Source: Adhaeribacter aerolatus
Lineage (GTDB): Bacteria > Bacteroidota > Bacteroidia > Cytophagales > Hymenobacteraceae
Assembly (NCBI RefSeq): GCF_007991635.1
Contig: NZ_BJYS01000002.1
Span: 186,001 to 250,000 of the forward strand
Direction: 5' to 3'
Length of the DNA stretch: 64,000 nucleotides
Under the pieces are notes generated by a model. It did no database searches. It was not told the DNA's origin and saw only the letters and a list, made by a program, of their open reading frames with translations. How positions within the stretch are numbered: the stretch's first letter is position 1; every line of letters begins with the position of its first letter. A program made the translations under genes and the position numbers. Shown here piece by piece: positions 54,718 through 64,000 of this stretch.

Positions 54718-55014
54718 ATGAAAAATCAAAAGCTAAAACTTGATGAGTTGAAAGTTCAGAGCTTTGTGACGGATTTCGACAAAGAGCAGGGCCAGACCCA
54801 GGAGATAAACGGGGGTACCGGCCGCGCCTATTGTATCGATCCTTCGCAACTAATTATTTGCCTCGGACCCCGGCTTACCATTACCCGCAATATTTCCTGT
54901 TTTGCGGCTACCTGCAATTACGCGCTCTGCAACCCCGAGCAGATTCCGACCAAAATACCAACCGATTTTCCGGTTACCACCACCACATGGGATGGCGGTA
55001 CCATCAGATTTTAA
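54718..55014 (+). CDS. Lanthipeptide precursor 1 (double-glycine leader, 5 Cys)
   Basis: 98 residues. The leader KLKLDELKVQSFVTDF is the type found on Bacteroidota class I lanthipeptide precursors; the LDEL and SFVT elements are probably read by the dehydratase. Cleavage by the C39 peptidase is expected after Gly32-Gly33 (EINGG). The predicted core of 65 residues has five Cys (AYC, IIC, ISC, ATC, ALC) and more than a dozen Ser/Thr, with TTTTWDGGTIRF at the end. That is long for a lanthipeptide. The first 33 residues match precursor 2 almost exactly while the cores differ completely. It is the first gene of the cluster. Confidence 0.85.
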   Translation: MKNQKLKLDELKVQSFVTDFDKEQGQTQEINGGTGRAYCIDPSQLIICLGPRLTITRNISCFAATCNYALCNPEQIPTKIPTDFPVTTTTWDGGTIRF

Positions 55015-55091
55015 GGTGAATCATTCGTCTTAAATCACTTAAGTATCAGTAATTTCTTAATTTTTTTTATCAACCTTAATATTTTAAAATC

Positions 55092-55331
55092 ATGAAAAAC
55101 CAAAAATTAAACCTCGATGAATTAAAAGTGCAAAGTTTTGTAACTGACTTTAACAAAGAGCAGGAACAAACCCAGGATGTGAATGGCGGCGGAACCGGTT
55201 ACAACTTCTGCTACTACGTGCCGGTAAATACTACCCGGTTTGTTGATATCTGGTCTTTACAATGCTCTTACGGCTGTGAATTCACCAGCAAACAAATTTC
55301 GGATGTTATTAACCCGGTAGTAAGATACTAA
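55092..55331 (+). CDS. Lanthipeptide precursor 2 (double-glycine leader, 3 Cys)
   Basis: 79 residues. The leader differs from that of precursor 1 at only five of the first 30 positions (KLNLDELKVQSFVTDFNKE) and ends in VNGGG, so cleavage follows Gly33 or Gly34. The core of about 45 residues has three Cys (NFC, LQC, YGC) and Thr/Ser at NTTR, WSL, CSY and FTSK, enough for up to three lanthionine rings. It is rich in aromatic residues (five Tyr, four Phe, one Trp). It lies 77 bases after precursor 1 and is followed by a perfect terminator hairpin, so precursor mRNA probably accumulates above the level of the modification genes. Confidence 0.85.
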   Translation: MKNQKLNLDELKVQSFVTDFNKEQEQTQDVNGGGTGYNFCYYVPVNTTRFVDIWSLQCSYGCEFTSKQISDVINPVVRY

Positions 55332-55343
55332 TAAACAACTGAG

Positions 55344-55380
55344 CTGCTGCCTGCATACACCTGCAGGCAGCAGTATTTTA
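55344..55380 (+). terminator. Hairpin terminator after the precursor genes
   Basis: A perfect 12-bp stem (CTGCTGCCTGCA 55344-55355 with 55362-55373), 6-base loop and a short T-rich tail. Placed between precursors and exporter, it probably acts as a partial terminator giving more precursor than enzyme message. Confidence 0.8.
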
Positions 55381-55540
55381 GGCTCCTTCCACCGAAAAGA
55401 TACCTTCCTGAATATTTGGTTGAAAGCTCATTTATCCCAATAATATAGTGGTTTAAACCGGCCGCACCTGGTTGCTTAACGGTTTGCCTCCCCCAATTGC
55501 AGCTAGCTCTGTTCCCTCATAACCCTTCTTGTCTATTAAA

Positions 55541-57733
55541 ATGAAGCAGTTCCCTTTTTACCGGCAACTAGATGCCATGGATTGCGGCCCCACCTGTTTG
55601 CGGATGGTGGCCAAACACTACGGTAAAATCTATTCGTTGCAGGCCCTGCGGCAGAAAAGCTACTTTACCCGCGAGGGCGTGTCGCTGCTGGGTATCAGCG
55701 ATGCCGCCGAAGCCATTGGTTTCCGGACGCTGATGGCTAAAATACCTTTCGAGAAGCTAAAGGCAGAAGCGCCTACCCCTTTTATCGCGCATTGGCGGCA
55801 GCGGCATTTTGTTGTGGTTTATGGCTTTAAAAAAGATCAGGTTCTGGTAGCCGACCCGAGCCACGGTTTAATCCAATATTCCCGGCAGGAATTTCTGGAT
55901 GGTTGGTTATACGGTCAGCCCAAAGAAGCCGAAGCTGGTATTGTCCTGTTCCTGGAAACCACACCGGCCTTTTATGCCCAGGTTGGTGAAGAAAGTACCG
56001 GTAAATTAAGTTTTAGTTTTTTGCTGGCTTACCTGAAGCCTTATAAACGGTTTTTGGTGCAGCTTTTTGTGGGCATGCTGGTGGGAAGTTTGCTGCAATT
56101 AATTTTTCCGCTGCTCACCCAATCTATTGTGGATGTAGGTATTAATACCCAGAATATAAATTTTGTGAACTTGGTACTGGCGGGACAACTTATGCTGTTT
56201 TTTAGCCGCACGGCTGTGGAAATGATCCGGAGCTGGATTTTGCTGCACATTGGTACCCGCATTAATATTTCTATCCTGTCGGATTTTTTAATTAAGCTGA
56301 TGAAGTTGCCACTTGGCTTCTTCGATACCAAAATGATCGGCGATTTATTGCAGCGCATCGGCGACCACAAACGCATCGAAAGCTTCCTGACTTCTTCTAC
56401 GCTGAGCGTGGTTTTTTCCTTCGTTAACCTGCTCATTTTTGGCCTGGTGCTGGCTTACTACGATCTGAAAATATTCGGTATTTTTTTGCTGGGAAGTGTG
56501 CTTTACGCCACCTGGGTGTTGGTTTTTATGCGCCGTCGCCGCGATTTGGATTACAAGTTGTTCGATCAGATGGCTGCTAACCAAAGCAATCTAATTCAAC
56601 TCATCAGTGGCATGCAGGAAATAAAACTCCAGAACTGCGAGCGGCAAAAGCGCTGGGAGTGGGAGCGCATACAAGCAGCCTTATTTAAAGTAAGTATTAA
56701 AACCCTGGCCCTGAACCAATACCAGGAAAGCGGCTCCATTTTTATCAACGAAGCCAAAAATATATTTATCACTTACATGGCGGCCAAGGCCGTGATTAAC
56801 GGTGAGATTACCCTGGGTATGATGCTGGCCGTGCAATCCATTATCGGGCAGTTAAATGCGCCCATTAACGAGATGATTAATTTTATCCGGGCTTCGCAGG
56901 ACGCTAAAATCAGCCTGGAACGCTTAGGCGAAATTCATCAGAAAAAGAACGAAGAAGACGATAAAGAACAAAAGTTAGTCCTGTTCCCCGAAGATGGCTC
57001 GCTTACCCTGCACCATATTGGTTTTAAGTACGAAGGGGCTCACTCGGAAAAAGTATTACGCAATATTTCCCTCACCATTCCGCAAGGCAAAACCACCGCT
57101 ATTGTGGGGGCCAGTGGCAGCGGCAAAACTACCCTCATAAAACTGCTTCTAAAATTTTACGAGCCTACGCAGGGCGAAATACGGTTGGGCGGTATGGGAT
57201 TCTCGCATTTCAGTAACCGCCACTGGCGGGAACGCTGCGGCGCCGTAATGCAGGACGGGTATATTTTTAACGATACCATTGCCCGCAACATTGCCATCGG
57301 CGACGATGAGATAGACCGCGAACGCCTGCTCTATGCCGTAAAGGTGGCCAATATTCAGGAATATATCGAATCGCTGGCCCTGAACTACAACACCAAAATT
57401 GGCGGCGACGGGCACGGCTTAAGCCAGGGACAACGGCAACGCATTTTAATTGCGCGGGCGGTATACAAAAATCCCGATTACATCTTCTTCGACGAAGCCA
57501 CCAATGCGCTGGATGCGAACAATGAGCGTACCATTATGGGTAACCTCAACAGTTTTCTGGATGGCAAAACGGTGGTGGTAGTAGCGCATCGCTTAAGTAC
57601 GGTGGTAAACGCCGACCAAATTATTGTGCTCGACAAAGGCCAGATTATTGAACGCGGCACCCACACGGAATTAGCAGGCCAACGCGGTGCTTATTTTCAA
57701 TTGGTCCGGAATCAGTTAGAACTCGGCACCTGA
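55541..57733 (+). CDS. C39-peptidase ABC exporter (LanT/PCAT type)
   Basis: 730 residues from the ATG at 55541; an in-frame TTG four codons earlier is less likely. The N-terminal C39 cysteine peptidase has Cys15 (DAMDCGPTCL), His89 (RHFVVVYG) and Asp105 (VADPSHG), the full catalytic set for cutting after double glycine. A six-helix transporter domain spans about 160-450. The nucleotide-binding domain has Walker A at about 523-530 (GASGSGKTT), the signature LSQGQRQR and Walker B (YIFFDEATNALD). It removes leaders and exports the matured peptides through the inner membrane, probably with the HlyD-family protein encoded two genes on. It lies 38 bases before the LanC gene. Confidence 0.95.
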   Translation: MKQFPFYRQLDAMDCGPTCLRMVAKHYGKIYSLQALRQKSYFTREGVSLLGISDAAEAIGFRTLMAKIPFEKLKAEAPTPFIAHWRQRHFVVVYGFKKDQVLVADPSHGLIQYSRQEFLDGWLYGQPKEAEAGIVLFLETTPAFYAQVGEESTGKLSFSFLLAYLKPYKRFLVQLFVGMLVGSLLQLIFPLLTQSIVDVGINTQNINFVNLVLAGQLMLFFSRTAVEMIRSWILLHIGTRINISILSDFLIKLMKLPLGFFDTKMIGDLLQRIGDHKRIESFLTSSTLSVVFSFVNLLIFGLVLAYYDLKIFGIFLLGSVLYATWVLVFMRRRRDLDYKLFDQMAANQSNLIQLISGMQEIKLQNCERQKRWEWERIQAALFKVSIKTLALNQYQESGSIFINEAKNIFITYMAAKAVINGEITLGMMLAVQSIIGQLNAPINEMINFIRASQDAKISLERLGEIHQKKNEEDDKEQKLVLFPEDGSLTLHHIGFKYEGAHSEKVLRNISLTIPQGKTTAIVGASGSGKTTLIKLLLKFYEPTQGEIRLGGMGFSHFSNRHWRERCGAVMQDGYIFNDTIARNIAIGDDEIDRERLLYAVKVANIQEYIESLALNYNTKIGGDGHGLSQGQRQRILIARAVYKNPDYIFFDEATNALDANNERTIMGNLNSFLDGKTVVVVAHRLSTVVNADQIIVLDKGQIIERGTHTELAGQRGAYFQLVRNQLELGT

Positions 57734-57770
57734 TAAAATATTTCTTTTCCAATCCCAATATCAACTTCCC

Positions 57771-59792
57771 GTGGAAACAAAATTAAAAGACCTGATTCGG
57801 AACGAAGCCATTCGGATTGGTGATGAATTGCTGGCGAAAGCCGAAGTAGCGCCTCAGGGCATGTCCTGGAAAACCATCGACCAGCAAGGCGAAATTATTC
57901 AATGGCGTACATCCGAAAGCATTTACAACGGGGTTTGCGGAATTATTCTATTCTTAGCGGAACTCTATAAGCAGACCCGGCAAAATAAATATTTGCACGG
58001 TGCGCTGGAAGGTGGCCGCTGGCTAGAGTGGTATTGCCGGGAACATCCCGCTACTAATTATACCTTTCTCACCGGCCGCATGTCGGTGCCTTATACTTAC
58101 CTGCAATTACACAATTTAACCCAAAATCCAGAATATCTGGACAAAGCGTTAGCCATTACCAAAACCGGTTTAAAAGATTGGGAGCCTGGGATAATGGAAT
58201 ATATCAATGGTTTGGCCGGAACCCTGTTATGCCTGGTGCATCTGCACGCTGCCACCCAGGAGGCCTGGTTGCTGGAATATATAGATAAATATGCCGGGCA
58301 ACTGCTCTCCCAGACGCATATGGGCAAAAAAGGAATTTATTGGGACCGCGTTCCGGTAAACGTGCACGGCTTATGCGGTTTTTCGCACGGGGCCTCGGGT
58401 GTGGGCTATGTGTTATTGGAACTGGGAAATTATTTAAAGAACCCCACTTTTTACTGGCTAGCCGAACAAGCCTTTACTTACGAGTCGCAGTACTACGATC
58501 CAGAGATAAATAACTGGTACGATTTCCGGAAGATGGTACTAACCCCAGCCGATGAACAGGCCCAGCAAGGAGCTTACGCCGCTGCCGATTACGGTTTCTT
58601 TACAAAAGGTACCAGCATGAATGCCTGGTGCCACGGTGCCGCCGGAATTGGTTTAGCCCGTTTACGGGCTTTTAAACTTTTGCAAAAGCCGGCGTACGCA
58701 ATGCAAGCGCTGCAAGCTATTGCGCATACCTGGGAAGATAGTCAGGAAATCGGTCGTACCACTTCTTTTACACTTTGCCACGGTGGGGCAGGCAATGCCG
58801 AAATATTCTTGAAAGCTTATGAGTTGTATAACAGACCGGATTATCTGGAGATGGCGGAATCGGTGGCCATTGCTGCCATTCAATCAAGAGCGCTTAACGG
58901 CGGTTACCGCTCCGGTACAAAATATGCCGGCGAAGATACCAGCCTGTTTATGGGCAACGCGGGTATTGGTTATTTTTATTTACGACTGCTGCAACCCCGG
59001 CAAGTGCCTTCTGTTTTAATGCCAATTATAAAAAATATTGCTCCACCAAAAGTAGGCACTTACGCCAATCTCTGCCTTTCGCCGGGAGCGGTACAGCGTA
59101 AATTAATAAGCAAAATATTCCCTTGTACGCTGCAACTGCTCCAGAACTTGCTACCCGAAGAGGTAGACAATTATTTCCGGCAGCGAGCGGGCGAAACTTC
59201 CCAAACCGGTTCTTTCCCGGACGATTTTGTTGCATGGGCGAAAGACCAAACGACTTTGCTGCCCCTATCGGAGAGCCATTTGCTGTACGAGGGATTACTG
59301 GTAGAATGGTTGAAATTACAGATGAATCAGGATATTTCGAGTGATGCCCTTTTATCCTACAAAAGCAAAAAGAAGGCGGAGCGAATAGCGGTGCTGGCTG
59401 CCCTGCCGGAGGTGGCATTAGCCAAAACCGTGCTAATGGTTGATCCGGATATGCAGTTGCTCAGTACCCAATATAAAGCCAGCCCGCCAACCGGCGAGTG
59501 CAATTTATTGCTCATGCCTTCTCTGCATTATACCCAGGAACTACTATTAACGGAATTTACCGCTACGGTACTGAAGGCTTTTGCGGAAGCAAAAACGGTA
59601 GCAACGGGCGTGCAGCATATCTTACATTGTTTTGAAGAACTGGCTGTTGCCCAGCAGGCCACAGTAGAAACTCTGGTTGTCGGGCAAATCCGGCAAGCCA
59701 TCCGGGCCGGCATCCTCCTGGAACCGGATCAGCATCCTTTACCAGTCATGGTCCAAACGGTTATTGCTGCGCCGGAAATCCTTGCCTCCTGA
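57771..59792 (+). CDS. LanC-type lanthionine cyclase with a long C-terminal extension
   Basis: 673 residues from a GTG start directly behind the exporter gene. Residues about 1-415 are a LanC toroid with all three zinc ligands: Cys287 (AWCHGAAGIG) and Cys336-His337 (TLCHGGAGN), matching nisin cyclase spacing, and CGFSHGASGVGYVLLELG earlier. LanC adds Cys thiols to dehydrated Ser/Thr to close the rings. The remaining 258 residues are not part of normal LanC (about 400-420). Around 550-655 they show two beta-rich stretches followed by three helices (LLLTEFTATVLKAF ... VETLVVGQIRQAIRAGILLE), a pattern reminiscent of PqqD-like RiPP recognition elements. That reading is an inference. Confidence 0.9.
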   Translation: METKLKDLIRNEAIRIGDELLAKAEVAPQGMSWKTIDQQGEIIQWRTSESIYNGVCGIILFLAELYKQTRQNKYLHGALEGGRWLEWYCREHPATNYTFLTGRMSVPYTYLQLHNLTQNPEYLDKALAITKTGLKDWEPGIMEYINGLAGTLLCLVHLHAATQEAWLLEYIDKYAGQLLSQTHMGKKGIYWDRVPVNVHGLCGFSHGASGVGYVLLELGNYLKNPTFYWLAEQAFTYESQYYDPEINNWYDFRKMVLTPADEQAQQGAYAAADYGFFTKGTSMNAWCHGAAGIGLARLRAFKLLQKPAYAMQALQAIAHTWEDSQEIGRTTSFTLCHGGAGNAEIFLKAYELYNRPDYLEMAESVAIAAIQSRALNGGYRSGTKYAGEDTSLFMGNAGIGYFYLRLLQPRQVPSVLMPIIKNIAPPKVGTYANLCLSPGAVQRKLISKIFPCTLQLLQNLLPEEVDNYFRQRAGETSQTGSFPDDFVAWAKDQTTLLPLSESHLLYEGLLVEWLKLQMNQDISSDALLSYKSKKKAERIAVLAALPEVALAKTVLMVDPDMQLLSTQYKASPPTGECNLLLMPSLHYTQELLLTEFTATVLKAFAEAKTVATGVQHILHCFEELAVAQQATVETLVVGQIRQAIRAGILLEPDQHPLPVMVQTVIAAPEILAS

Positions 59793-59831
59793 GCAATATT
59801 TATTTTTCCTCAAACCTAAATTTTAAAATAG

Positions 59832-61169
59832 ATGCCTACCTATCAATATTCTTTAAACGGAGCAGCCCAGACCACCGACCAATCGATTGAACTGCGTACC
59901 GAAGAAGTACAGGAACTATTAGGCCAGATGCCCAACTGGATGATCCGGTGGGGGATTACAGTGGTATTTGCCATTGTGAGTTTACTGCTCCTGGCCAGCT
60001 GGCTCGTAAAATATCCCGATGTGCTGACTTCCCGGGTAGTACTTACCACCCAAACGCCGCCGGTTAGCATGGTAGCCCGTGCCGAAGGACGTATTCAGTT
60101 TCTGGTAAAAGATAAGGAATACGTACAAAAAGGCGCTTACCTGGGAATAATCGAAAGTCCGGCCGATATAAAAGATGTGCAGTACCTCACCGCAGAAATC
60201 ACGCATATTAAACAGCAGATAAGCCAACCGCAGGAACCGGAGATAAATGATATCTCTTTGCCCGAAAACCTGCGTTTAGGCGAGTTACAGGATGCGTACC
60301 TGGCTTTGCTCACCAGCCTGCAGGAATATAAACGCAACCGGAGCACCAACTTAGCGGCGAAGCAAATTGTGGCAGTACAGCAGCGGATTCGGGGCTACGA
60401 AGCTTTAAATGCACAACTGGAAATCCAGCAGCAAATATTGTGGGAAGAACTGCAACTGGCGCAAAAACGCTACGCCATCGATTTTAAGCTGCTCTCGGAA
60501 AAGGTAATTGCCGACATTGATTTTGATCGCACCAACAATGCTTACCTGCAAGCGAAGCGAACTTTTGAATCGGCGCAGGGTCAGATTATAAACAACCAAC
60601 TGGTAATAGCGCAGCTCCAGGCCCAAATTACCGAGTACCAGACCAATGCGGCGGACCAGGAAGACCGCTTGCGTGCTAAGATCGAAACCGCTGTAAAACA
60701 ACTGGAAGGCCACCTGGATAGCTGGGAGCAGCAATACGTGTTTAAAGCACCCATTACCGGCGAAATAGCCTTTGTAAAATATTGGAGCAATAATCAGTTT
60801 ATCAAGGCCGGCGAGGCGGTTTTCACAATCGTGCCGCCCTCAAAGGATTTATTTGCCCAGGTGCAGTTGCCCATAACCGGTTCGGGTAAAGTAGCGCCCG
60901 GCCAGCGGGTAAATATTAAGTTTGATAATTATCCATCCCCCGAATTCGGCATAGTACAAGGTACTGTACAAACCATCTCGCCCATTCCGCAAAATAATGT
61001 TTACACCATTCAGATTGCCCTGCCCCAAGGATTAACCACTAGTTACCGCCGGGAATTACCGTTTCGGCAGGAAATGCAGGGTACCGCCGAAATTATTACA
61101 GAAGACTTACGGCTGCTTGAACGCATGTTGCACCAGTTCCGGGCGCTGCTGGATAACCCCAGAAGCTAG
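59832..61169 (+). CDS. HlyD-family membrane fusion protein
   Basis: 445 residues with one N-terminal membrane helix (WMIRWGITVVFAIVSLLLLASWLV, about 36-59), a split biotinyl/lipoyl-like domain (MVARAEGRIQFLVKDKEYVQKGAYLGIIESP near 78 and FKAPITGEIAFVKYWSNNQFIKAGEAVF near 300), a long coiled coil between (about 105-290) and a beta-barrel part (LPITGSGKVAPGQRVNIKFDNYP near 345). It would link the C39 ABC exporter to an outer-membrane channel for peptide release. The N-terminal ELRTEEVQELLGQMP segment is cytoplasmic. It lies 39 bases after LanC and 60 before the dehydratase, in one operon. Confidence 0.9.
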   Translation: MPTYQYSLNGAAQTTDQSIELRTEEVQELLGQMPNWMIRWGITVVFAIVSLLLLASWLVKYPDVLTSRVVLTTQTPPVSMVARAEGRIQFLVKDKEYVQKGAYLGIIESPADIKDVQYLTAEITHIKQQISQPQEPEINDISLPENLRLGELQDAYLALLTSLQEYKRNRSTNLAAKQIVAVQQRIRGYEALNAQLEIQQQILWEELQLAQKRYAIDFKLLSEKVIADIDFDRTNNAYLQAKRTFESAQGQIINNQLVIAQLQAQITEYQTNAADQEDRLRAKIETAVKQLEGHLDSWEQQYVFKAPITGEIAFVKYWSNNQFIKAGEAVFTIVPPSKDLFAQVQLPITGSGKVAPGQRVNIKFDNYPSPEFGIVQGTVQTISPIPQNNVYTIQIALPQGLTTSYRRELPFRQEMQGTAEIITEDLRLLERMLHQFRALLDNPRS

Positions 61170-61229
61170 TTATTTATCCTCGGTAGTAATGCACCCAAAC
61201 GCAATATCTAATCTTAATCTAAGAATATT

Positions 61230-64000
61230 ATGAGAGTTTTCCCTTACCTCCTGGCCCGTATTGGGGGCGGCTCCTACGAGCATTTAACCCAGGTAGATTA
61301 CCGCGAACTAAGCACCCGGACAGCCTGCCTGATTACGCGCAGGAACGAGAAACAACGGTTAAAAGAACAGTTGTGCGCGCATTTATTCGAATGCATCAAA
61401 AACTTGCCCGACCAGAAGATTCAGAACCAGGTGCAGAATTTACGGCGCGATATTTTTAACCAACGCCCGGTGAAACCCCAAGTTCTGGCAACAGCCAAAC
61501 CCCACTTACCGGCAGTATTAACTTCTGAGGTGGATGAATACCTGGTTTTTGCCGCAGAGCTGCAAGCCGAAACGGAAAGAGCAGCCGCCATCTACGAGCA
61601 GTTCTTGTACACCGGTCGCCGGCATTTGCAGCAATTGGCCCACGACGAAAACTTGCAAAAAGGGCTGGTGCTATCGAGCCAGTCTTTGCTGAATGCTTTA
61701 AAAGATTACGCCCGGCAAGACCCCGACAGCTTTCGGAAGAAAGAATTTCAGACTGAACAAAGCCTGCTGAAATATATTACCCGCATGTATACCAAAACCT
61801 CGCCCTTTAGCACGTTTAATAACCTGGCGCTGGGTACGCTTGGCTCCTTGCCCGGCAAAGCTATTCAGATCGATGCTAACCCGGATACTGAAAATTCGGT
61901 AGTGGGGCACATTCGGTTAAACAACAATCTGTTTAAATATTTAAAAGATTTATTTACCGCGAGTAAAGAAATTTACCCCCATCTGTTGCTACGCGCCAAT
62001 CCCACCATCGCGCAAGAACAAGACCAGTATGTTTACCTAACCAATCATAATAATGTAGACGCTTTTCAGCGGATTCCGGCCTCGCCGGTGCTGGGGTTGG
62101 TTTTACAATTGGTGCAGGCCAATCCGGCTGGTATTCGGTTTGGCGCTTTGGCCGAAGAAATTTGTGAGTATGTGGATGCCCCGGCCGAAAATATCCAAAG
62201 TTATCTCCGACAATTAACCGGCTACGGTTTTCTGGAGTTTGACCTGGGTGTTTCGGGTACCGACCCGGATTGGGATTTAAAGCTGTTAGATCAGTTAGCC
62301 TATTTAGCGCAGCAGCAGGTTAGCCACATGGCTGCCCTAACCGAAACGCTGCAGTACATCCGTCAGCAATCCAGCCAATATGCCCAGGCAACCGTGCCGG
62401 AACGCCAGCGCATACTGAACGAGGTTTATCAGCGGTTCCGGAATATTTGTATGAAACTGCACGAAGCAGCCGGTCTGCCCGAAATAGAACGGAAAACTCC
62501 CGAAGAATTACAGGCCGAATGGCTGAACTCTCAGAAAGAAGCCGCGCACCAGCAAAAGGAAAACGGTCGGCAAGCCGGGGAAACTGTGTTGGTAGTAGAA
62601 AAAGTAGGACCCGCCAAATCCAAAGAAGTAATATTTGAACATAAGTCCTCTACTTACTTTAGCTTTAAGCCCGAGCAGCTATTTTACGAAGATAGCATTC
62701 GGGAAGCGGCGGTGCAGGTAGATGCCGAAAAGTTAAGTCAGTTGGTACAAAACCTGTTTGGCCTGCTACAGGAAATGCGCCCCTTCCGGGGAATGGCCGA
62801 TGAGCAGGAGTTGATGTTTAGTTATTTTAAGAAAAAGTATGGAGCCGGTAGCCGGGTTAACCTGCTGCAATTTTACGAAGATTTTTACCGGGAAATTAAA
62901 AAACCGGAAGCAGAATGGCTGGCGAAAAAACAACAGGCGTTAACCGGGAAAGACAACAATCTGCTTCAAACAAACCCGGATGAAGGAGTTGACAATTCAG
63001 CGCAGGCAGAGTTGAATAAAGAATTAAATCCGGGTCTTTTAACTTCAGAACAACTCAGCCAGTCCGGCCAAAAAAATAAAGCATGGTTTCAGAAAATGGT
63101 GGCGGCTTTGCCGGAAATTTCTTCGGAAGGAATTAACCAGGTAGATTTATCGCTCGATTTTATCCGGCAAGTTAACCAAACCCCGTTTATTCCGGCACCA
63201 GAATCTGTTGGAGCTAATTCTTACGGGGCTTTTGTGCAGTTGTACCAGGAGCAAGATGAAACCGGTGAATGGCAGTTAAAAGGTGTGCTCAACGCTTCGC
63301 TGGCGGGTTATGGCAAAATGCTGAGCCGGTTTCTGTATATTTTACCTAAAGAAGTAACCCAAACCGTCCGGGGCTGGAACAGCGCTTTACAACCCCAAAA
63401 CAGTTTATTTATAGAAAACGGCGATGCTTCTTATTTTAATGCCAACCTGCATCCGCCCTTAATGCCTGCCGAAATAAGAATACCCGGTGGCCACAACAGC
63501 TTACCCGTAGCCCAACAATTCCCTGTTTCGGATTTTGAGGTAAGGGTAGATGAGCCGGCCGGTGAAATTCAGTTATTTCATAAAGAAACGGGCCAGCGAA
63601 GCTATGTCTTTGATTTGGGTTTCCAGGGGCATAGTGGGCGTTCGCAGCTCTTCCAACTCCTCGATAAATTTACCCGGGCCGAATATTTGTTTTCTTACCC
63701 GGTAGTTTCGGCAGTGAACGCGGCTGTTGAGCCAAACACCGTTAACATAAATACGGAAGCTGCTAATCCGGAGCCCCAGCTCATTATCCGGCCCCGCATT
63801 GTGTACCAAAACCAACTCGTTTTGCAGCGGAAGGGCTGGTATGTTCCAAAAGAATTAATACCAAAGCGGCAGCCCGATATGTCGGACTGGAGTTACTTTT
63901 TAGCAATAAACGAATGGCGCCAAAGTCACGGCATTGCAGATGAGGTATACGTTACCATTTCGCAAAACCGGCAGCAAACCGGCATCGATCCCGAACTTAC
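61230..64000 (+). CDS. LanB-type lantibiotic dehydratase (cut by window end)
   Basis: At least 923 residues, still open at the window end. The N-terminal dehydratase (glutamylation) domain is clear: RVFPYLLARIGG-type start, KYITRMYTKTSPFSTFNNLALG around 180-200 (the conserved RxxTPFGxF region), GYGFLEFDLGV, and in the C-terminal part FNANLHPPLMP, PQLIIRPRIVYQNQLVLQRKGWYVPKEL and WRQSHGIADEVYVTISQNR, which normally lies at the end of that domain. These enzymes activate Ser/Thr as glutamyl esters from Glu-tRNA and eliminate them to dehydro residues. Charged, low-complexity inserts (about 415-460 and 565-610) enlarge it. Whether the SpaB_C elimination domain is fused or encoded separately cannot be seen. 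It lies last in the visible operon. Confidence 0.9.
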   Translation, partial: MRVFPYLLARIGGGSYEHLTQVDYRELSTRTACLITRRNEKQRLKEQLCAHLFECIKNLPDQKIQNQVQNLRRDIFNQRPVKPQVLATAKPHLPAVLTSEVDEYLVFAAELQAETERAAAIYEQFLYTGRRHLQQLAHDENLQKGLVLSSQSLLNALKDYARQDPDSFRKKEFQTEQSLLKYITRMYTKTSPFSTFNNLALGTLGSLPGKAIQIDANPDTENSVVGHIRLNNNLFKYLKDLFTASKEIYPHLLLRANPTIAQEQDQYVYLTNHNNVDAFQRIPASPVLGLVLQLVQANPAGIRFGALAEEICEYVDAPAENIQSYLRQLTGYGFLEFDLGVSGTDPDWDLKLLDQLAYLAQQQVSHMAALTETLQYIRQQSSQYAQATVPERQRILNEVYQRFRNICMKLHEAAGLPEIERKTPEELQAEWLNSQKEAAHQQKENGRQAGETVLVVEKVGPAKSKEVIFEHKSSTYFSFKPEQLFYEDSIREAAVQVDAEKLSQLVQNLFGLLQEMRPFRGMADEQELMFSYFKKKYGAGSRVNLLQFYEDFYREIKKPEAEWLAKKQQALTGKDNNLLQTNPDEGVDNSAQAELNKELNPGLLTSEQLSQSGQKNKAWFQKMVAALPEISSEGINQVDLSLDFIRQVNQTPFIPAPESVGANSYGAFVQLYQEQDETGEWQLKGVLNASLAGYGKMLSRFLYILPKEVTQTVRGWNSALQPQNSLFIENGDASYFNANLHPPLMPAEIRIPGGHNSLPVAQQFPVSDFEVRVDEPAGEIQLFHKETGQRSYVFDLGFQGHSGRSQLFQLLDKFTRAEYLFSYPVVSAVNAAVEPNTVNINTEAANPEPQLIIRPRIVYQNQLVLQRKGWYVPKELIPKRQPDMSDWSYFLAINEWRQSHGIADEVYVTISQNRQQTGIDPEL

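Follow-up and report, generated by a model that had tools for sequence, protein, structure and literature searches.

How does a lanthipeptide pathway whose dehydratase is divided over two proteins keep its enzymes together on one precursor peptide? The question is raised by a gene cluster at the 3' end of the window, the 64,000-nucleotide stretch of Adhaeribacter aerolatus DNA that was analysed (contig NZ_BJYS01000002.1, positions 186,001 to 250,000; genome of 6.68 Mb). The contig continues past the window. All genes of the cluster lie on the + strand, in the order LanA1, LanA2, C39-peptidase ATP-binding cassette (ABC) exporter, LanC, HlyD, LanB N, LanB C, a 374-aa protein and a TPR-CHAT protein, the last three beyond the window end (Table 1). 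We conclude with good confidence that the cluster encodes a class I lanthipeptide pathway that is intact and has leaders of the pinensin type, and in which a tail on the LanC cyclase most likely holds the leader.

An earlier sequence-only reading had presented the combination of class I dehydratase and cyclase with double-glycine (GG) leaders, a C39 exporter and HlyD as out of the ordinary. Family searches found all of its genes, on the + strand and close to where it had placed them, and the combination itself was borne out by the families, the NGG leader ends and the C39 motifs. It is not new, since Walker et al. 2020 (PMC7268733) describe it for Bacteroidetes, where class I precursors have another leader motif, many ending in Gly-Gly, and C39 is often found in the cluster. 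With the mixture known and the leaders of pinensin type, interest shifts to the LanC tail, which, like the split of LanB, was absent from the earlier account.

The C-terminal tail of LanC

The cyclase domain occupies about the first 417 of the 673 residues of LanC and the tail follows it. LanC was found in 26 open reading frames (ORFs), namely in A. aerolatus, in 24 of the 31 relatives described below and in locus L033. The zinc ligands and catalytic His (H206, C287, C336 and H337) were invariant in the 23 sequences aligned, from which L033, L049 and L067 were left out. The best NCBIfam row was TIGR03897, a LanM model, with 246 bits, under the cut-off of 304; some Bacteroidetes LanCs, of a family containing that of pinensin, have been placed near LanM cyclase domains (PMC7268733).

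As the ORF of L049 is cut at a contig end, 25 LanCs are complete, and 24 of these, from several phyla, carry a tail of about 210-360 residues after the cyclase. L063 has the tail, its LanC motif having been missed by the automatic search; L040 begins with part of a second LanC tail, which was left uncounted. The tail alignment held 22 sequences (L063 was omitted as well). L029 and L038 are the same contig, as are L030 and L064, and one of each pair was kept in the LanC, tail and LanB N alignments. In a sample of the phylum, LANC_like matches were found in 22 of 395 genomes, with 35 rows; 11 fragments were set aside and the 24 rows spanning most of the 350 positions were counted. Eighteen of them lie in ORFs of 369-460 aa, too short for a tail, three in ORFs of LanM size and three in extended ORFs: those of A. 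aerolatus, of G031, which has the group's leader, and of G582, which has the group's LanB N. Since only group members were extended among the 24 rows, the tail is, within this sample, a mark of the group and no general feature of LanCs. A second LANC_like match in the A. aerolatus genome (G000:C6:194328-195383) lies in an ORF as long as a class II LanM (1121 aa).

The tail was modelled with AlphaFold2 at a pLDDT of 84.3 and a pTM of 0.76 (pLDDT 91.5 for the whole of LanC). The model consists of a helix bundle, then four strands, then three helices (tail residues 143-234). The recognition element (RRE) of ribosomally synthesized and post-translationally modified peptides (RiPPs) is strictly defined as three strands followed by three helices (PMC12710340), and this order is present in the predicted model, with four strands. 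The best Foldseek rows were chains of TglI (E 3.2e-3 and 6.3e-3). By VIA the tail matched TglI with a Z of 11.6 over 182 residues (rmsd 4.8) and NGO1945 with a Z of 11.3 over 190 of 200 residues (rmsd 5.3), both matches spanning the helical part as well. Lower rows were RREs: MccB (6.7), NisB (6.3), MibB (5.9), TbiB1 (5.7), TbtB (5.4) and PqqD (5.0), together with TigE (5.9), whose match we take to be an RRE. They were interleaved with proteins that have no part in RiPP biosynthesis, among them NO66 (6.6) and Rv2067c (6.3). Helical and RRE domains occur as a pair in partner proteins of the multinuclear non-heme iron-dependent oxidative enzymes (MNIO), including versions that the DUF2063 signature misses (PMC12452194).

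VIA guidance states that a Z of up to about 13 may reflect an arrangement common in helical folds, and sequence support was therefore sought. Pfam PqqD matched three of the 22 tails (best 1.9e-5) and NGO1945_C one (0.0037). A set of five BufC-like proteins was assembled. Each has DUF2063 and NGO1945_C, with two NGO1945_C matches below the cut-off, and each is encoded next to an MNIO enzyme of family PF05114. With hhalign, the tail profile matched this set with a probability of 83.3 and an E of 8.6e-6, with 157 columns in line; the score was 43.8, versus 19.1 for the best of 100 column shuffles and 17.7 for the reversed profile. The RRE part alone gave a probability of 90.8 and an E of 1.2e-6. 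These values show a distant sequence relation between the second half of the tail and BufC. The tail as a divergent piece of LanB was rejected, with hhalign at 0.8% for LanB C and 1.1% for LanB N.

Several results weigh against the tail as a leader-binding module or against the pathway as read, the caution on VIA scores being one. Foldseek gave no match of the tail at E <= 0.001, the A. aerolatus tail has no Pfam match, and the helical part alone has no sequence signal towards BufC by hhalign (0.42%). When the tail profile was run against PDB sequences, its rows did not rise above chance level, and naming the tail from that search was dropped for this reason. The tail profile does not match that of LanB N (the 1.1% above), which should hold an RRE of its own, and LanB N keeps the TbtB region 257-354 that VIA superposed with the tail's RRE; because LanB N keeps this TbtB-aligned stretch, the pathway may have two leader sites. 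L067, within the wider group, has a LanC of 498 aa without tail. Finally, the NisB stretch carrying the catalytic His aligns weakly with LanB C (i-Evalue 0.27).

Weighed together, the fold and the BufC match suggest, by analogy with TglI, BufC and other RREs, that the tail is most likely the cyclase's own leader-binding module. No PF05114 MNIO enzyme was among the matches listed for the ten cluster proteins scanned, and without such a neighbour the tail is not filed as an MNIO partner protein (PME), though its way of working may be similar. Leader binding is known from class I cyclases, as in MadC, which uses an FxLx motif for it; the accessible text of PMC9889658, where this is described, contains neither the term RRE nor recognition element. 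A fusion of LanC with an RRE came up in none of the literature searches made for it and does not appear in the accessible parts of PMC12710340, PMC7470986, PMC12452194, PMC10352776 or PMC9889658, which does not establish its absence from print, supplements and most subscription papers being beyond reach.

Precursors, dehydration and export

Table 1. Features of the A. aerolatus lanthipeptide cluster, in window positions unless a locus is named; values are those of the family searches.
Feature	Position	Strand	Details
LanA1 precursor, 98 aa	54718..55014	+	leader 54718-54816 ends INGG; core 65 aa, 5 Cys, 13 Ser/Thr
LanA2 precursor, 79 aa	55092..55331	+	leader 55092-55190 ends VNGG; core 45-46 aa, 3 Cys, 8 Ser/Thr
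C39-peptidase ABC exporter	55541..57733	+	Peptidase_C39 5.8e-33, ABC_membrane 2.3e-29, ABC_tran 1.1e-30
LanC cyclase with C-terminal tail, 673 aa	57771..59792	+	PF05147 5.7e-60, residues 48-417
LanC tail, helical part (DUF2063-like by fold alone), residues 438-551	59082..59423	+	AlphaFold2, VIA
LanC tail, RRE-like winged helix, residues 554-645	59430..59705	+	AlphaFold2, VIA, hhalign
HlyD-type periplasmic adaptor, 445 aa	59832..61169	+	HlyD_3 1.5e-15
LanB N, glutamylation protein, 989 aa	61230..64199 (199 bases past window end)	+	PF04738 2.5e-40, intact
LanB C, elimination protein, 339 aa	window-equivalent 64636-65655 (L002:14636-15655)	+	PF14028 2.5e-45
374-aa protein	L002:16180-17304	+	between LanB C and CHAT gene; no Pfam or NCBIfam match
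TPR-CHAT (caspase-like) protein	L003:4391-7273, window-equivalent 67391-70273	+	follows cluster

Both leaders matched the model NF038180 (leader_pinensin), with 47.2 bits for LanA1 and 48.9 bits for LanA2, about twice the cut-off of 24. To the sequence-only reading the cores looked unrelated to the pinensins, which are Bacteroidetes lanthipeptides of class I (Mohr 2015; Walker 2020, family I 17); for the leaders such a lack of relation is refuted by these matches. Each leader has 33 residues, and in LanA2 a third G directly follows the VNGG leader end. Assuming a single dehydration for every Cys, the predicted monoisotopic masses are 7057.50 for the LanA1 core and 5277.48 (cut after GG) or 5220.46 (cut after GGG) for that of LanA2. 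Among the short ORFs between and after the LanB genes none with a leader was seen by eye, and the leader profile run on the cluster stretch L002 returned LanA1 and LanA2 only. Positions L6, L8, L11, V13, S15, F16 and T18 (window numbering) were kept at 86-100% in the 44 rows of the final leader profile, two of which repeat the window's own leaders.

The LanB-type dehydratase that had been read as a single protein is present as two, with the second gene outside the window. When the sequence was extended past position 64,000, as had been proposed, the rest of the operon was found intact, with the end of LanB N and the separate LanB C. Inactivation of LanB downstream, which had been named as a refutation, was looked for and rejected, both proteins being intact; the other operon frames are intact as well. 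The glutamylation and elimination domains that define class I are both present, on two proteins, and split LanBs, as in pinensin, are known from a number of class I clusters (PMC7268733).

The best match of the LanB N profile was TbtB (6ec7, 5.6e-43), with a region aligned to TbtB 19-353. In LanB C, R59, R61, R124 and H307 were invariant in the 23 homologues aligned out of 26 found, the own protein included (L050, L065 and L067 were left out). By profile, over three stretches, these residues line up with the HIRLR, ERYGG and H-x-x-NNR motifs of NisB; with MibB it is mainly the first two motifs that line up. The anti-type residue set consists of two carboxylate-binding Arg, a backbone Arg and a catalytic His (PMC9486935, PMC9011353), and by the criteria of these papers the elimination protein is a predicted anti-type glutamyl lyase, so that ordinary DL-type rings are expected. 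Elimination of the syn type, with an unusual methyllanthionine, was not favoured, the anti-type Arg/Arg/Arg/His set being kept in LanB C.

The exporter ORF was listed from TTG 55529; its homologue begins at the ATG equivalent to 55541. The Cys, His and Asp motifs of the C39 domain are all present, and this domain is fused to an ABC exporter and accompanied by GG leaders, as in a peptidase-containing ATP-binding cassette transporter (PCAT). The HlyD adaptor matched TIGR01843 at 1.3e-30, under the model's cut-off. No outer-membrane channel was seen in the cluster; OEP domains gave 46 matches in the genome, often two per protein. Export through the whole envelope is plausible.

Of the named relatives that have the cluster, Adhaeribacter rhizoryzae DK36 is the nearest; its gene order is identical, the last two genes included, and its LanA1 is 84% identical. 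Between the two species the ratio of nonsynonymous to synonymous substitutions (dN/dS, NG86) was 0.05-0.18 in the nine genes compared, at a dS of 0.6-1.6, which indicates that the cluster is under constraint; together with the recurring order, the low ratio shows that the cluster is not due to chance. The exporter protein is 95% identical to that of A. rhizoryzae (dS 0.59) and the other eight genes 67-84% (dS 1.0-1.6). The high identity of the exporter suggests stronger constraint, to which gene conversion or a recent exchange may have added.

The cluster is uncommon. The pinensin-type leader model matched in 3 of 296 genomes of the phylum, LanB N in 13 of 395 (mostly weakly), the LanC tail in 2 of 200 genomes of the family and LanB C in 2 of 8 of the genus. 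Among the cluster proteins scanned for families no regulator or dedicated immunity gene was recognised. Promoter and terminator scans gave 5 and 4 hits, versus 4.2 and 2.5 in shuffled sequence, no tandem repeats were found, and the word TAnnTTTG is absent from the 420 bases upstream.

Leader ends and neighbouring genes in the relatives

The genome collection was scanned once with the LanB N alignment, which yielded 143 pattern matches and led to 31 relatives. Bacteroidota, Ignavibacteria, Acidobacteria, Gemmatimonadetes, KSB1, Aminicenantes and Phycisphaerae are among the groups named in their titles, and many of the relatives are metagenome bins. At least 25 of the 31 have a separate LanB C, at least 17 the same HlyD type, at least 15 the C39-ABC exporter (L054 holds a fragment of one) and at least five an S8 subtilase; these are lower bounds, as many contigs are short. 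The LanB N alignment held 22 rows and the tree 28. In the tree, the 13 rows with C39 and the five with S8 were separated by one fully supported branch, ten rows being unlabelled.

The leader end follows the protease. At C39 loci, 21 of 22 leaders had GG within 26 residues and one had AG. At S8 loci (five relatives and L033), GG was present in one of ten leaders, by eye inside the core, and AG or SG in three, by eye away from the conserved GTV-type end. The association of GG with protease type had a Fisher p of 3.4e-6, not corrected for relatedness. L067 is an exception that fits the pattern: on a long branch, it groups in the tree with the S8 half (fork support 90/90 and 89/85), yet it has a C39-ABC exporter and a leader ending in ALASG. 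The first block of the leader was thus retained, and the cut site shifted along with the protease type.

Some precursor cores of the S8 branch, at L063:13888-14235, L065:13692-14030 and L033:41-334, consist of a near-identical T-C-G-S/A-T-C unit repeated in runs, whereas those of the C39 branch are irregular. Histidine kinases were found upstream of the cluster at L044:573-2564, L058:4286-6977 and L055:4532-6251, with TPRs in L044 and L058; genes of response-regulator type adjoin them, the LuxR type being confirmed in L058 only. This suggests two-component control of these three clusters. No two-component genes were recognised in the A. aerolatus cluster.

A CHAT gene lies near the cluster in five of the 31 relatives (L038, L041, L049, L068 and, by genome coordinates, just outside L039). 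In the genomes of 11 relatives that were searched, 66 CHAT matches occurred in about 68 Mb; at this density the loci, 0.53 Mb in all, should contain about 0.5, related loci not being independent. Among the loci compared, homologues of the 374-aa protein occur in L038 and L039 only, there too beside CHAT/TPR genes. Searched for in the literature together with lanthipeptides, CHAT brought up a single paper, on picocyanobacterial genomes to judge by its title.

Proposed pathway and known systems

In the proposed pathway, the glutamylation protein would esterify Ser and Thr of the core with glutamate from glutamyl-tRNA and the separate elimination protein would take the glutamate off by the usual anti route. 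LanC would then add Cys thiols, forming at most five rings in peptide 1 and three in peptide 2, and the C39 domain of the exporter would cut after GG. From the ABC exporter the peptide would pass to HlyD and leave by an outer-membrane channel whose gene lies outside the cluster. Throughout, the LanC tail, resembling an MNIO partner, would hold the leader and thereby let the cyclase, perhaps along with the two dehydratase proteins, work on one and the same bound precursor.

The tail could instead be a scaffold that docks LanC to the two LanB proteins or to the exporter, with no contact to the leader. It does occur in clusters with split LanBs, its helical half is without a sequence relative, and the full-length LanC is modelled as a single compact unit (pTM 0.91). 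We regard this as unlikely, though not far-fetched: in its fold the RRE-like part resembles leader-binding domains, its profile matches a BufC RRE, and docking and leader binding are compatible with each other. That the winged helix is a vestige, an RRE-like fold with no present role, would agree with the identities to the A. aerolatus tail (13-62%), and some LanB RREs of thiopeptide systems have been called possibly vestigial (PMC7470986). A vestige would hardly have persisted across several phyla in all but one of the 25 complete LanCs, nor be expected in a gene with a dN/dS of 0.16 between the two Adhaeribacter-group genomes, and this explanation is considered improbable.

It is very improbable indeed that the whole cluster is a silent or decaying remnant. 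The 436 bases between the two dehydratase genes and the lack of a recognised regulator or immunity gene would suit such a state; the intact frames, kept catalytic residues, low dN/dS in nine genes and identical order in a second species speak against it.

Leader binding is thus retained as the most likely role of the LanC tail, and from it a wider proposal is put forward tentatively, at somewhat less than even confidence. In pinensin-type pathways the cyclase, not the dehydratase, may carry the main leader-holding unit, a DUF2063/RRE unit of MNIO-partner type fused to LanC, which would keep the split dehydratase coordinated on one precursor, while the leader end could change freely from C39 to S8 processing or back. 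If confirmed, an RRE-like module within the cyclase itself would help to explain how three enzymes stay on one substrate in systems with a split LanB, and could serve as a detachable part to combine lanthipeptide enzymes with other leaders. The RRE-like tail is also a sequence mark for this branch.

Among known systems, the pinensin-type clusters share with that of A. aerolatus the leader family NF038180, the split LanB, a LanC near the LanM cyclase and, in related clusters, GG leaders with C39. The two cores are long here (65 and 45-46 aa), and a LanC tail is not mentioned for pinensin-type clusters in the accessible parts of PMC7268733. As in the spt (SapT) system and in thiopeptide biosynthesis with TbtB, the best match of the LanB N profile, glutamylation and elimination reside on separate proteins; according to the accessible descriptions, SptBb is a divergent lyase without the catalytic His, whereas LanB C of A. 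aerolatus keeps the anti-type Arg/Arg/Arg/His. The nisin system (NisB, NisC, NisT and NisP) is alike in reaction logic and catalytic residues and differs in its full-length LanB and in NisC, a chain of 409 residues without such a tail. It also uses a separate protease, NisP, and a transporter without peptidase. The MNIO partner proteins TglI, NGO1945 and BufC, with DUF2063 and an RRE, share the helical and RRE-like fold with the tail, and BufC also the profile match of the RRE part; in A. aerolatus, this module is fused to the C-terminus of LanC.

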